Part shown: positions 8,174-50,528 of the stretch, in pieces
Numbering within the stretch: the first letter of the stretch is position 1
How the letters are laid out: every line of letters begins with the position of its first letter
Assembly: GCF_000744705.1 (NCBI RefSeq)
Contig: NZ_JQML01000001.1
Location: 2,862,017-2,926,016 of the forward strand
Length of the DNA stretch: 64,000 nucleotides
DNA from: Streptacidiphilus albus JL83
GTDB lineage: Bacteria; Actinomycetota; Actinomycetes; Streptomycetales; Streptomycetaceae
Direction: 5' to 3'
Notes under the pieces: model-generated
The model's input: only the letters and a program-made list of their open reading frames with translations
Told to the model about the DNA's origin: nothing
Databases searched by the model: none
Program-made: the position numbers and the translations under genes

Positions 8174-8623
8174 ATGCACAAGAGCCTGCGTCTCATCTCG
8201 GTGACTGCCGTCGCCGCCGTCGCGATCGGAGTGGCCGGTCCCACGGCGTCAGCGGCGCAGGTCCCTACGCCGGCTGCCGCCGGGGCGGATTCGACCGCCC
8301 TGCAGGTCGTTCAACTGACGGCCGACGAGGCCACCGAGATCCAGCGGATCGCCGCGCAGATCCAGGCCGAGACCGCCGCAGCCAACGACGAGGACGCTCC
8401 GCAGATGCTGAGCGCCAAGTCCGAAGCGGGCAAGATGATGATCGACCTGCTCAAGAAGTCCCCTGGCCTCTTCAAGGCGGCCATAAAGGCGGCGAAGAGC
8501 GGCCACAAGGCGTTCAAGGACTGGATGGGCAAGCAGAACACGGCGGTCCGCGGCGCCTGGTGGCTCCTCAGCGGCGGTGTGCAGAGCTGGGTCATCGACG
8601 AGCTCGCCAAGCTGGTCAGCTGA
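8174..8623 (+). CDS. small secreted protein, unknown family
   Basis: Precursor of 149 residues with a classic Sec signal peptide: MHKSLRLISV, a hydrophobic core, and an expected cleavage after TASA at about residue 27. The mature part starts with an Ala/Thr/Glu-rich helical segment. It ends in a Lys-rich amphipathic stretch, KSPGLFKAAIKAAKSGHKAF, followed by an aromatic, hydrophobic tail with GAWWLLSGGVQSWVIDELAKL. Start ATG 8174 follows AAGGAG at 8162-8167. A 92-residue membrane protein is encoded 60 bases downstream on the same strand. The cationic amphipathic helix with a hydrophobic tail resembles membrane-active peptides, but no family is recognised and no activity is claimed. Confidence 0.8.
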   Translation: MHKSLRLISVTAVAAVAIGVAGPTASAAQVPTPAAAGADSTALQVVQLTADEATEIQRIAAQIQAETAAANDEDAPQMLSAKSEAGKMMIDLLKKSPGLFKAAIKAAKSGHKAFKDWMGKQNTAVRGAWWLLSGGVQSWVIDELAKLVS

Positions 8624-45520: not shown

Positions 45521-48500
45521 TCAGCCGCCGCTGCCGGTACGGGACATCACGGTCACCTGCTGCACCAGCATCGGGTTGCCCGGCTGGGTCGCCGCCGTGG
45601 GCGCGGCACCGCCGTAGGCGCCGGGCAGCGAGCCGCCGACCGCCAGGTCGAGGATCAGGAACACCCCGTGGTGGACGGCGGCGTCCCAGGTCGCAGCGTC
45701 CATCCGGTTGGCCGACACCTGGTGGTAGAGGGTGCCGTCGATGTACCAGCGGACCTGCTCCGGCGAGACCGAGCGGTCGATTTCGACCGTGTAGGTGTGG
45801 AAGCCCGAGGTGCAGGCCTGGCACGGGTACGCACCCGAGCCGAGCCCGGTCGGCTCGTCGCAGGGACCGCCCGGGGTGATGCCGCAGTGCATCGTCCCGA
45901 GGACCGAGGGCAGGCCGTTGACGTTCTCCATGGCGTCCAGCTCGCCGACGCCGGGCCAGGTCGCGGCCCCGGTTCCGGTCGTGCTCCCCTGGCGCAACCC
46001 CGCGCCCAGGGTCCAGAAGGCCGGCCAGTAGCCGGTCGCGGCAGCCCCGGAGACATGTGGCAGGGCGATCGTGGCCGAGATCCGGAGGATGCCGCCGGCC
46101 GGCGCGGCGAAGCCGTCGCCCCGGGACTCGATCCGGCCCGAGGACCAGGCGCCGGTGCTGCCGTTCCGGGTGGGGACGATCTCCAGCGCGCCGTGGCCGT
46201 CCAGCCGGACATTGGCGGTGGAGTCGGTCATCGTCTCCACCTCGCCGGTGCCCCAGTGGTTCGCCACGCACGGCTGGTAGCAGGTCCCCACGTCGTACTG
46301 CCACAGGGCGGGATTGGGACGGGCTCCGGCCGGACCGGCGAAGTCGTCGTCGAGCAGGGTGGTCCAGCCGTCCGCCGTGCCGCTCCCGGCACCGCCGGCG
46401 TCCAACAGCCCGGCGGCGAGCAGCAGGTGCTGCAGCCGGGGTTCCAGGACCACCACGGCGGCATTGGTCAGGTGGGCGGTGTCCCGGTACAGCAGGATCC
46501 GGTCCAGCACGGCCGGGCAGCTGCTCCCCCCGGCCGGGCAGAGCACGTCGTTGACGCCGACCGTCTGCACCCCCGGCTCCTGCCCGGCCGCGATCGCCCC
46601 GGCCAGCGGGTCCGGCCACAGCGCCTGGGAGCGCGGCACCGCGCAGTCGCCGAGGGTGTCCTGATGGTCCGACACGCAGGCGGGGATGTCGGTGCCGGGG
46701 ACCGGGGTGTCCTGGAGGTAGACGATCGGGACGCCCAGGGCGCGCAGCGGGGTCAGCGTCCCGTTCCACGCGGCCAGCAGCTTCGCCTGCTCGGCCGGGG
46801 TCTGGTCGGCGGCGTAGCGGTTGAGCGAGGCGACCACGATCAGGTCGGGTTTGGGCTCGCTGCGCAACCGGGCCAGCACATTGGCCCGCCACACCCCGCA
46901 CTCGGTGTAGGTCCGGCCCAACTGCGGGTTGGTGACCGTCAGCTGGGCCAACGGGCAGCCCTGCTTGACCAGTTCCTCCAGTGCGTCGTGCCGGGAGGCG
47001 GCTATGCCCAGCATCGCCGAGAACCACTGGCCCGCGTGGGAGTCGCCCAGCAGCACGATCCGGTGCCCGCTGCCGGTGTCGCCGAAGAGGCAGGGCGGGC
47101 TGGTGACGGCGGCCGGGGGGACCTCGCAGGCGCCGTCCGGCGGGAAGTCGTTGCGGGCCTGGATCGGGGTCGGCACGACGTCCCCGCTGCCGACCGCCTT
47201 GGCCCCGCCGACCAGCAGGCTGGTCCCGGTGACCGCGCCCGGCGGCAGCCCGGCGGTGTTCACCGGCGTGGCGGAACCGAGGCTGTGCAGGGTCATCGCC
47301 CCGGCGGTCAGCGCCAGCACCACCGGGATGGTGACCGAGCTGAAGCCCAGCGACAGTCCGCGCCGGGGCAGTTCGACGACCACCCGGGAGCTGCGCAGCG
47401 GTCGCTCGACCCAGCGCATGGTGGCGGCGGCGGGCAGGACGGCGGCGAGGGTGAGCGCGGCCTTGGCCGGCCAGCTGAGGGCCCAGCCGTAGCGGTCCCC
47501 GACCAGGACCAGGATCGGCCAGTGCCAGAGGTAGAGGTTGTAGGAGAGCCGTCCCACGGCGCGCGGCGCGCGGGCGCCGAGCAGTCGGCCGACACCGTAC
47601 CCGGCTGCGCCCCGCGCAGTGCCGTCGGTCCCCTCGGCACCGGCGCGCCCCGGCACTCCGGCCAGGATCACCGCCGCCGCGCCGAGGGTCGGCAGCAGCG
47701 CGGCCGTACCGGGGTAGGGGGTCGCCGTGGTGTAGCGGAAGACGGCCAGCAGGATCGCGGCGAAGCCGGCCCAGCCGCAGAGCGCGCGCAGCGGCGCGGT
47801 CAGCGACCCGGGGACGCGCGCCGAGAGCCTGGTCGGCAGCCCGCTGGACAGGCCGCTCGGCAGCCCGGTCGGCAGCAGCGCGATCAGCGCGCCGACGCCG
47901 AACTGCCAGACCCGCGAGGGGGTGCCCAGGTAGGCCAGCGACACCGAGTCCTGGCTCCAGCGCAGGCAGAGCACCAGCGACGCGACGGTGGCGACCAGGG
48001 TGAGCCCGGTCAACGAGAGCCGCAGCAGCCGTCGGCGGCGGGCCGGGTCCGCGACCCTGCGGGTCAGCAGCCAGGCCAGCAGCGCGCAGAGCGGCGCCCA
48101 GAACAGGTAGAACTGTTCCTCCACCGCCAGCGACCAGAAGTGCAGCAGCGGGCTGGGGGCCTGCCCGGCCGCGAGGTAGTTGGTCTGTTCGCTGATGAAG
48201 CGCCAGTTGGCCACGGAGAGCGCGGCGGCGAGGACGTCGTGGTAGAGGTCGGTCCGGGAGAGCGGGCCGACCAGCAGCAGCGCCGCCAGACAGACGGCGG
48301 CCAGCACCAGTCCGGCCGAGGGGAGCAGTCGGCGGGCGCGGCGGGAGTAGAACTCGTCCAGCCGGATCCGGCCGGTGGTGAACGCCTCGCGGAACAGCAG
48401 TCCGGTGATCAGGTAGCCGGAGATGACGAAGAACACGTCCACGCCGACATATCCGCCGGTCATACCGGGGACGGCGGCGTGGTATCCGAGGACGGCGACG

Positions 48501-48625
48501 AGCGCCAGGGCCCGCAGGCCCTCGATGTCCGGGCGGAACGCGTGGCGTGACTCCCGCGCGGGAGTCACTGCCGTGGGGGACGCGTCCTGGTTCCGGTCCA
48601 CGACCGGAGCAGCATAGGACGACAT
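45521..48625 (-). CDS. three-domain fusion: OafA-type acyltransferase, SGNH domain and glycoside hydrolase family 16
   Basis: Protein of 1034 residues. Residues about 30-420 form an acyltransferase-3 membrane domain (FRPDIEGLRALALVAVLGYH, GGYVGVDVFFVISGYLITGL, FYSRRARRLLPSAGLVLA, FWSLAVEEQFYLFW). An SGNH domain follows (about 520-740), with Ser529 in LLGDSHAGQW and Asp715/His718 in RDTAHLT. The C-terminal 250 residues are a GH16 domain: GTGEVETMTDSTANVRLDG, then the catalytic motif ELDAMEN with Glu895 (nucleophile), Asp897 and Glu900 (acid/base). GH16 enzymes cut beta-1,3 or mixed beta-glucans and galactans. The frame is continuous, and SGNH and GH16 both face outward if the topology is standard. 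It follows the cellulose-synthase-like gene on the same transcript; together they could make, acylate and trim one polymer. Confidence 0.9.
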   Translation of the reverse strand: MSSYAAPVVDRNQDASPTAVTPARESRHAFRPDIEGLRALALVAVLGYHAAVPGMTGGYVGVDVFFVISGYLITGLLFREAFTTGRIRLDEFYSRRARRLLPSAGLVLAAVCLAALLLVGPLSRTDLYHDVLAAALSVANWRFISEQTNYLAAGQAPSPLLHFWSLAVEEQFYLFWAPLCALLAWLLTRRVADPARRRRLLRLSLTGLTLVATVASLVLCLRWSQDSVSLAYLGTPSRVWQFGVGALIALLPTGLPSGLSSGLPTRLSARVPGSLTAPLRALCGWAGFAAILLAVFRYTTATPYPGTAALLPTLGAAAVILAGVPGRAGAEGTDGTARGAAGYGVGRLLGARAPRAVGRLSYNLYLWHWPILVLVGDRYGWALSWPAKAALTLAAVLPAAATMRWVERPLRSSRVVVELPRRGLSLGFSSVTIPVVLALTAGAMTLHSLGSATPVNTAGLPPGAVTGTSLLVGGAKAVGSGDVVPTPIQARNDFPPDGACEVPPAAVTSPPCLFGDTGSGHRIVLLGDSHAGQWFSAMLGIAASRHDALEELVKQGCPLAQLTVTNPQLGRTYTECGVWRANVLARLRSEPKPDLIVVASLNRYAADQTPAEQAKLLAAWNGTLTPLRALGVPIVYLQDTPVPGTDIPACVSDHQDTLGDCAVPRSQALWPDPLAGAIAAGQEPGVQTVGVNDVLCPAGGSSCPAVLDRILLYRDTAHLTNAAVVVLEPRLQHLLLAAGLLDAGGAGSGTADGWTTLLDDDFAGPAGARPNPALWQYDVGTCYQPCVANHWGTGEVETMTDSTANVRLDGHGALEIVPTRNGSTGAWSSGRIESRGDGFAAPAGGILRISATIALPHVSGAAATGYWPAFWTLGAGLRQGSTTGTGAATWPGVGELDAMENVNGLPSVLGTMHCGITPGGPCDEPTGLGSGAYPCQACTSGFHTYTVEIDRSVSPEQVRWYIDGTLYHQVSANRMDAATWDAAVHHGVFLILDLAVGGSLPGAYGGAAPTAATQPGNPMLVQQVTVMSRTGSGG

Positions 48626-48707: not shown

Positions 48708-50528
48708 CTACGGAAGCATCGGGGCGACCCAGCCGGAGGCGACCAGGGCGACCAGGGCGAGCAGGGAGGTGACCGCCAGCGCCTCGGGCCAGCGGCGGGG
48801 CTGCATGGCCGGGCGCGGCACCCTGACCCTGTTCCGGACCCGACCCGGGCTCCGGCTGCCGTCGCCCGGACGCAGCTCGCGGAGCAGGTCGCGCAGCAGC
48901 GGCAGTCCGATCTGACACTGCACCAGCACATAGAGCAGCAGGCCCCAGGTCGGCGCCCAGCCGACGCGGTGGACGTCCAGGGCGAGCCCCGCGACCGCAC
49001 CGCCGAGGGTGAGCACCAGCCAGACGGCGGCGGTCTGCACCACCCGGCGGGCCAGCCCTCCGGGGCGGGCCCGGCCGGCGCCGGTCGGCACCCAGGCGGC
49101 GCCGTGCCCGCGCAGGGTGTGCAGGAAGGCGGCTCCGGCGGCCAGGCTCATCAGCAGGTTGGCGCGGATCACCTCCATCCGCCAGCGGGTGCGGCTGACC
49201 TGCGGCAGCAGCACGTGCCAGAGCCAGAGCGGCGCGAGCATCGGCAGCACGTGCCAGGGCCGGACCAGCTCCGGGTAGCAGAACATCATCACCAGCGGCG
49301 GCAGCGGGGCGGCGACCACGTTGACGAACATCGACAGGTAGCCGACGACGCCCTCGTAGAAGCAGAGCCGCATCCGCCAGGGCGCGCCGATGCGCTTCAG
49401 GTCGCGGGTGCGGACCAGGTGCAGGTTGCCCATCGCCCAGCGGTACTGCTGGTTGACGAAGGAGCCCAGGCTGTCCGGCGAGGTGCCCTTGGCCAGCAGC
49501 ACCGGGACGTACAGGGTGCGGAAGCCGTGCTCGTACAGGGCGAGCCCGGTGTACATGTCCTCGCTGTGGTCGAGCCGGGCGATGCCGCCGGCCCGCTCCA
49601 GTGCGGTGCGCCGGTAGAGCGCGTTGCTGCCGCAGCAGACGGCGGCGTCGCTGGCGTCCCGGGAGGGCTGGATCCAGCGGAAGAACCACTCCTGGGCCGA
49701 GCCGGCCGCGCGCTGGATCCAGCCCATGCTCTCGGTCGTGTCGAAGCACTGCGGGCTCTGCACGATGCCGACGGCGGGGTCGGCCAGATAGGGCGCGAGG
49801 TGCAGCAGGAAGTCCGCGCGGGGCGCGAAGTCGGCGTCCAGGATCGCGATGTAGTCGCCGTGGCTGAGGGTCAGGGCGTGGTTGAGGTTGCCGGCCTTCT
49901 TGAGGTGCCCCCGGTCGGGGCGGACCACGTAGTGGTAGCCGTGCTCCGCCGCGAGCGCGGCGACCTCGGGCCGGTCGGCGTCGTCGAGCACCCAGATGTC
50001 GAGCTGTCCTGGCCACTCCATCGTCGCCACCGCCCGGTAGGCGTTGGCGAGGATGTCGAGCGGTTCGCCGCAGGTCGGCAGGTAGAGGTCGACGCTGGGC
50101 GCCTCGGTCGGCTGCCAGGCACGGATCAGCACCTCGTGCGACTGCCGGGTGAGCCGGCGGCTGCGCAGGCTGTTGGCGCTGGACAGCAGCGAGGCCACGA
50201 CATTGAGCCCGAGGACGGCGAGGAAGCCCCACAGGGCCGGGGTGCGCAGGGAGAAGGCCAGCATGCTGGCGGCGGTGAGGACGAAGGCGAGCGAGGTGCA
50301 GATCAGCACCCAGCGCCGCTGCGGCCCGAAGTACCAGTAGAGCTCCCGGTCGTCGGGCGGCGCGGGCAGGTGCGGTTCGGGCAGGCGCGGTTCGGGCAGG
50401 CGCGGCGGGCCGATGTCCGATGCGCCGATATTCGGTGCGCCGGCCTGCGGCGCAGCTGTGCTCGTCGGGGTCGGCCGGTCGCGAATTTGCGCATGGACCT
50501 GCCGAACGGTCGGACGTATGTCGGTCAT
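48708..50528 (-). CDS. cellulose-synthase-like processive GT2
   Basis: Membrane glycosyltransferase of 606 residues. A Pro-rich N-terminus (RLPEPRLPEPHLPAPP) precedes two helices (about 75-120), then the catalytic domain: IWVLDDADRPEVAALA (about 180), YIAILDADFAPRADFLLHL (about 231), HSEDMYTGLALYEHG (about 322) and FVNQQYRWAMGNLHLV (about 362). This is the D, DxD, ED, QxxRW set of processive synthases of the BcsA/CslA/curdlan type. At least five helices follow to the C-terminus; no PilZ domain is present. The next gene carries a beta-glucanase-type GH16 domain, which favours a beta-glucan product. No galactose oxidase gene of the streptomycete cslA-glxA type is adjacent. A DasR-type operator lies 50 bases upstream of ATG 50528. 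Confidence 0.88.
   Translation of the reverse strand: MTDIRPTVRQVHAQIRDRPTPTSTAAPQAGAPNIGASDIGPPRLPEPRLPEPHLPAPPDDRELYWYFGPQRRWVLICTSLAFVLTAASMLAFSLRTPALWGFLAVLGLNVVASLLSSANSLRSRRLTRQSHEVLIRAWQPTEAPSVDLYLPTCGEPLDILANAYRAVATMEWPGQLDIWVLDDADRPEVAALAAEHGYHYVVRPDRGHLKKAGNLNHALTLSHGDYIAILDADFAPRADFLLHLAPYLADPAVGIVQSPQCFDTTESMGWIQRAAGSAQEWFFRWIQPSRDASDAAVCCGSNALYRRTALERAGGIARLDHSEDMYTGLALYEHGFRTLYVPVLLAKGTSPDSLGSFVNQQYRWAMGNLHLVRTRDLKRIGAPWRMRLCFYEGVVGYLSMFVNVVAAPLPPLVMMFCYPELVRPWHVLPMLAPLWLWHVLLPQVSRTRWRMEVIRANLLMSLAAGAAFLHTLRGHGAAWVPTGAGRARPGGLARRVVQTAAVWLVLTLGGAVAGLALDVHRVGWAPTWGLLLYVLVQCQIGLPLLRDLLRELRPGDGSRSPGRVRNRVRVPRPAMQPRRWPEALAVTSLLALVALVASGWVAPMLP

Follow-up and report, generated by a model that had tools for sequence, protein, structure and literature searches.

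A putative two-gene exopolysaccharide system in actinobacteria, pairing a GT2 synthase with an acyltransferase–SGNH–GH16 fusion protein

Introduction

Bacterial loci in which a polysaccharide synthase is encoded together with acylation functions and a hydrolase are already known. The clostridial ccsZABHI and Pseudomonas wss systems for acetylated cellulose (PMC7710045; PMC10302187) bring together, at one locus, a GT2 synthase, an O-acetylation machinery and a cognate endoglucanase; in these systems an MBOAT protein serves as acyl carrier and has a DHHW/AlgX-like partner encoded separately, the hydrolase (in ccs) belongs to family GH5, and the synthase has a PilZ domain. In PgaB (PNAG; PMC5933820) and PelA (Pel; PMC12022489), a modifying domain and a glycoside hydrolase cutting the same polymer are joined in one protein. 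O-Acyl transfer is the known activity of AT3-SGNH proteins (PMC9558356; PMC9833829), and OafA, OafB, OatA and SucT (PMC9558356; PMC9833829; PMC10503756) consist of an AT3 domain, an extra helix and an extracytoplasmic SGNH domain; as described in that literature, none of them carries a GH16 domain. The GH16 enzymes of the ExDxxE type are retaining glucanases (PMC10992293). Two of solved structure, the Streptomyces sioyaensis endo-1,3-beta-glucanase (PDB 3DGT) and Actglu (7EO3), the latter assayed on curdlan (PMC10992293), are stand-alone secreted proteins with carbohydrate-binding modules and no acyltransferase. Finally, an actinobacterial GT2 glucan synthase is known from the CslA-GlxA system of Streptomyces (PMC11022532).

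Here we describe a locus from Streptacidiphilus albus JL83 in which a GT2 synthase gene is followed by a single gene for an AT3-SGNH-GH16 polypeptide. The locus lies in the window analysed, a stretch of 64,000 nucleotides to which all coordinates below refer. The fusion protein shares the AT3, extra helix and SGNH arrangement with OafA, OafB, OatA and SucT, and the ExDxxE catalytic domain with 3DGT and Actglu. Unlike in ccs and wss, the AT3-SGNH part and the hydrolase form one polypeptide, PilZ is absent, and only two genes are conserved; unlike PgaB and PelA, which remove acetyl groups, are not integral membrane acyltransferases and use other glycoside hydrolase families, the fusion is predicted to add an acyl group. 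Compared with CslA-GlxA, the pair has no conserved oxidase or other neighbour, and the partner of the synthase is the acyltransferase-GH16 protein. The literature on AT3 or SGNH combined with GH16 yielded no description of an AT3-SGNH-GH16 fusion, and the AT3 literature searched makes no mention of a fusion to any glycoside hydrolase, so that the polypeptide is apparently undescribed in the searchable literature.

With only two genes, the locus would be a minimal example of polymer synthesis, acylation and cutting coupled through a protein fusion. It makes two general questions testable in one polypeptide: the reason for which a polysaccharide synthase has a hydrolase of its own, and the way in which decoration is coordinated with cutting. 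In addition, the locus suggests that streptomycetes and their relatives make an acylated glucan not yet characterised, and draws attention to a GT2 subfamily without the gating motif typical of the beta-glucan synthases known so far.

Results and discussion

Domain organization of the fusion protein

The fusion gene (45521-48625, minus strand) is a single ORF of 1034 codons, encoding 1034 aa, with an ATG start codon; inspection of the sequence revealed a ribosome-binding-like GAAAGG just 5' of the ATG. Pfam analysis located an AT3 acyltransferase domain at residues 33-400 (47426..48529, minus strand; PF01757, Acyl_transf_3, E 4.2e-24) and an SGNH domain of the AT3-fused family at residues 500-731 (46433..47128, minus strand; PF19040, E 1.3e-24). 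Both matches are above the gathering cut-off, the RX10H motif is found in the first helix, and the SGNH serine and DxxH motif are present. By its domains and motifs, the protein is an AT3-SGNH acyltransferase of the OafA/OatA type, for which acyl transfer to a carbohydrate is predicted. The best full-length model was NCBIfam SucT (NF058601, E 6e-60), with a score of 203.5 bits that is far below the curated cut-off of 1275 and rules out SucT equivalog identity. No carbohydrate deacetylase domain of the PgaB/PelA type was found in the fusion by Pfam scan.

The Pfam GH16 model remained below threshold on the fusion protein. In a phmmer search, residues 751-1028 (45542..46375, minus strand) aligned to 3DGT (E 2.8e-91, about 3e-91) and to 7EO3 (E 1e-77), with identities of 58% and 51%, respectively; the ExDxxE motif, which in the fusion reads G-E895-L-D897-A-M-E900-N, is common to all three. 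When the predicted structure was searched with Foldseek, 3DGT was also the top match of the C-terminal part (E 9e-25); confidence in the AlphaFold models used in this study is moderate, with a mean pLDDT of 67-68. The domain, a beta-jelly roll with ExDxxE and close to 3DGT, is of the laminarinase type, and hydrolysis of beta-1,3-glucan is its predicted function. An earlier sequence-only reading of this DNA had proposed the triple fusion, and the single ORF together with the Pfam and phmmer matches bears it out. The same reading had singled out Glu895 for mutation; the numbering is correct, E895 and E900 being the two carboxylates of ExDxxE.

Conservation of the three active sites

Besides the window copy, 30 intact fused rows align end to end; the alignment therefore contains 31 full-length fused rows, which come from 30 distinct genomes (L035 and L122 are apparently one contig). 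In all 31 rows, the AT3 residues R38-x10-H49, R95 R96 x R98 R99, W164 and H368 are invariant, as are G527-D528-S529-H530, D715 and H718 of the SGNH domain (GDS529H and D715-T-A-H718), and W867, E895, D897, E900 and H913 of the GH16 domain. The three acidic residues of the intact ELDAMEN motif noted from the window sequence are thus kept across the set, with E/D/E in 31/31 rows. The linker between SGNH and GH16 is short and variable. Using a simple counting method, dN/dS was 0.15-0.40 in AT3, SGNH and GH16 for nine of ten pairs, the GH16 part behaving like AT3 and SGNH; the exception was the GH16 domain of one near-identical pair, with dS of about 0.04. Invariant catalytic residues combined with low dN/dS indicate that all three active sites are under selective maintenance.

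A frameshift or an assembly artefact joining two genes had been raised as a way in which the fusion could prove spurious. Although a few relatives (L038, L061) are indeed broken, the 31 intact fused rows exclude this explanation, to which we assign practically no probability. It should be noted that L061 (G038) and L038 (G006) show big internal deletions or frame breaks in the GT2 and fusion genes, for which assembly errors or decay are possible causes.

The GT2 synthase partner

A GT2 processive polysaccharide synthase gene (48708..50528, minus strand; 606-aa ORF; PF13632 and TIGR03030 matches) lies directly upstream of the fusion, on the same strand and separated by an 82-base gap. The GT2 ortholog occupies this position in every clade-A locus whose flank is present, often with a gap of about 16 bases; L062 and L063 together make up one broken GT2/fusion case, divided between two contigs. 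In a sample of 100 relatives, GT2 copies of at least 50% identity were found only where the genome also had the fusion, a relative of it or its remnant. Because no conserved third partner gene was found around the pair in clade A as a whole, GT2 and fusion constitute the unit.

GT2 retains the invariant D,D,D,QxxRW signature of processive synthases (including HSED and QQYRW), and the GT2 model, which has transmembrane helices, is nearest to BcsA (Foldseek E 6.8e-19). These features agree with the processive synthase that the sequence-only reading had placed upstream. Its view of the two genes as one system was likewise upheld, since the pair is conserved without other neighbours and the same three functions form an operon in three genomes (see below). 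The TIGR03030 (BcsA) score of GT2 is 186 bits against a cut-off of 699, no PilZ domain was found in GT2 by Pfam scan, and WVPTG is present near the gating-loop position where FxVTxK, fully conserved in BcsA, CrdS and BgsA (PMC6821405), would be expected. On these three grounds GT2 is not a BcsA cellulose synthase, and WVPTG in place of FxVTxK rules out a CrdS or BgsA beta-glucan synthase as well. The absence of FxVTxK also leaves room for a product other than a simple beta-glucan.

About 50 N-terminal residues of the 606-aa frame are poorly shared with relatives, so the true start is probably further in than the ORF start, and the protein correspondingly shorter at its N-terminus. ORFs of 1500-1600 aa in L035, L056, L115, L116, L121 and L122 suggested a quadruple GT2-AT3-SGNH-GH16 fusion. 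This candidate was discarded: at the junctions inspected, the GT2 frame has its own stop, and the acyltransferase frame, a different one from that of GT2, simply continues upstream without a stop in DNA of high GC content.

Distribution

The distribution of the fusion was assessed in an even set of 150 genomes from the window's family. A strong match was present in 39/150, and the coordinates of the matches distinguished about 30 fused or broken fused copies from 14 AT3-SGNH genes without GH16, with five genomes containing both. Fused copies also occur in a second family of the order (f3), and genome searches retrieved one more intact copy (L143) from f19, another family of the class. Overall, 31 intact fused copies were counted in about 30 genomes of at least three actinobacterial families, named carriers being Kitasatospora griseola, Streptomyces tateyamensis and Streptacidiphilus sp. 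4-A2. No full-length copy of the fusion was found in the plasmid records searched.

Proposed function

The reading we favour, with moderate confidence, is that the two genes encode a compact, membrane-bound, synthase-dependent exopolysaccharide system, in which GT2 would synthesize the polymer, AT3-SGNH would O-acylate it, and GH16 would trim or release it. GT2 would polymerize a nucleotide sugar, most likely UDP-glucose, and extrude the chain through its own transmembrane channel. From a cytoplasmic donor, AT3 would pass an acetyl or succinyl group across the membrane to Ser529 in the SGNH domain, and this domain would then O-acylate the emerging chain. GH16, located next to the exit on the outer face of the membrane, would cut the chain by a retaining mechanism involving the carboxylates E895 and E900, and the cut would set the chain length or free the chain from the synthase. 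The gene, its domains and conserved catalytic residues, the conserved pairing, the split-operon form and the tree provide the basis from which we infer the identity of the polymer, the acyl group, the sharing of one substrate and the purpose of the cut.

In the GH16 tree, the fused domains and those of the split operons described below form one group beside secreted enzymes including 3DGT and 7EO3 (SH-aLRT 94). Sisterhood to curdlan-cutting enzymes suggests that the polymer probably has beta-1,3-glucan linkages. The substrate range left by the sequence-only reading, which extended from beta-1,3-glucan to lichenan and agarose-type polymers, is narrowed accordingly: the domain groups with curdlan-active beta-1,3-glucanases, and not with agarases or lichenases.

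Retaining chemistry and a location at the membrane face would suit a transglycosylase equally well, and the fungal GH16 Crh enzymes, which are transglycosylases, provide a precedent for chain transfer. GH16 might then act mainly by cutting the nascent acylated glucan and transferring it to a second chain or a cell-wall acceptor, thereby anchoring or cross-linking the polymer and not releasing it. However, the nearest solved relatives are hydrolases, and no sequence feature favouring transfer over water was found; we regard this possibility as improbable.

Split operons and related synthase-hydrolase pairs

In three loci of family f19 (L132, L144 and L145), the same functions are encoded in the order GT2, AT3-SGNH with its own stop, and a separate GH16 gene starting near that stop. 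The N-termini of the separate GH16 proteins are lipobox-like (LLLLAGCSGPG, LLAGCSGPG and LLLAGCSEPG), predicting lipoproteins; in the split form, a lipid anchor seems to take the place of the AT3-SGNH body in tethering GH16 to the outer membrane face. Fused and split-operon forms would thus be alternative ways to keep GH16 at this face beside the synthase. In the AT3-SGNH tree, fused rows appear in two places, namely the 31-row clade and L143, which lies beside the split rows. The tree requires two changes, either a pair of fusions or a fusion followed or preceded by a split. In L145, a 15-base unit repeated 7.9 times (8404-8519, 98% matches) lies in the gap that separates AT3-SGNH from the GH16 gene.

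A sister GT2 family, with 34-44% identity to the window GT2, was found in L073-L083, L085 and L086. In every locus checked, its gene adjoins a GH26 gene (14/14 GT2 genes, spread over 13 loci; L073 and L086 include duplicated ones) as well as a gene for a PMT-like glycosyltransferase. The GH26 protein of L076 has a lipoprotein signal (LLLAGCAYAG). These loci look like a second, related make-and-trim system. More distant GT2 genes (about 26% identity) adjoin a GH16 gene with an N-terminal membrane anchor (L039:5079-8789, with a 7-base gap, and L041:5876-9860). Taken together, the GH26 and distant GH16 pairings indicate that synthases in this part of the GT2 family are repeatedly associated with a tethered hydrolase.

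These pairings bear on another explanation, in which GH16 would digest foreign beta-glucans (of fungal walls or plants) for food or attack, the acyltransferase being only a membrane anchor. The nearest secreted relatives are in fact degradative beta-1,3-glucanases. Nevertheless, GH16 always accompanies the synthase operon, either fused or as a predicted lipoprotein, the GT2-hydrolase pairing recurs with GH26, and three further GH16 genes (large open frames) elsewhere in the same genome could serve such a purpose. We therefore give this explanation only a slim chance.

GH26 is often a mannanase family, and its pairing with the sister GT2 weakens the glucan assignment for the fusion system. Along with the lack in GT2 of the FxVTxK of known beta-glucan synthases (PMC6821405), it would be compatible with a system that acylates and trims a non-glucan polymer, for instance a mannan or a mixed polymer, the specificity of GH16 having drifted. 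Against this stand the 58% identity of GH16 to 3DGT with an intact ExDxxE, and the catalytic core of GT2, which is of the cellulose-synthase type; we consider a non-glucan product rather unlikely. A broader proposal combines an O-acylated beta-1,3-type glucan of an undescribed actinobacterial class with a rule for the GT2 subfamily, that of a hydrolase tethered at the exit (GH16 in the present system and GH26 in its sister), and with a GH16 that would act as a transglycosylase and, like fungal Crh, attach the acylated chain to the cell wall. The chance that this whole combination is correct appears very slim.

A clade without GH16

One Streptomycetaceae clade (14 loci: L058, L072 and L093-L104) has kept GT2 and AT3-SGNH without any GH16, and no replacement hydrolase was found in its operons. 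Acylation can therefore stand without cutting, and cutting is not always needed. One AT3 motif differs consistently between the fused and the GH16-less clades (E170 versus N).

Near eight loci of the GH16-less clade there is a GH25 gene on the opposite strand, and several have a GNAT gene upstream of GT2. In L138, two AT3-SGNH genes form a tandem pair, with no fusion-type GT2 or GH16 nearby. In genome G113, the GH16-less AT3-SGNH gene occurs twice on contig C1 (409180-411246 and 7963673-7965739), with equal score and identity, one copy toward each end of the contig.
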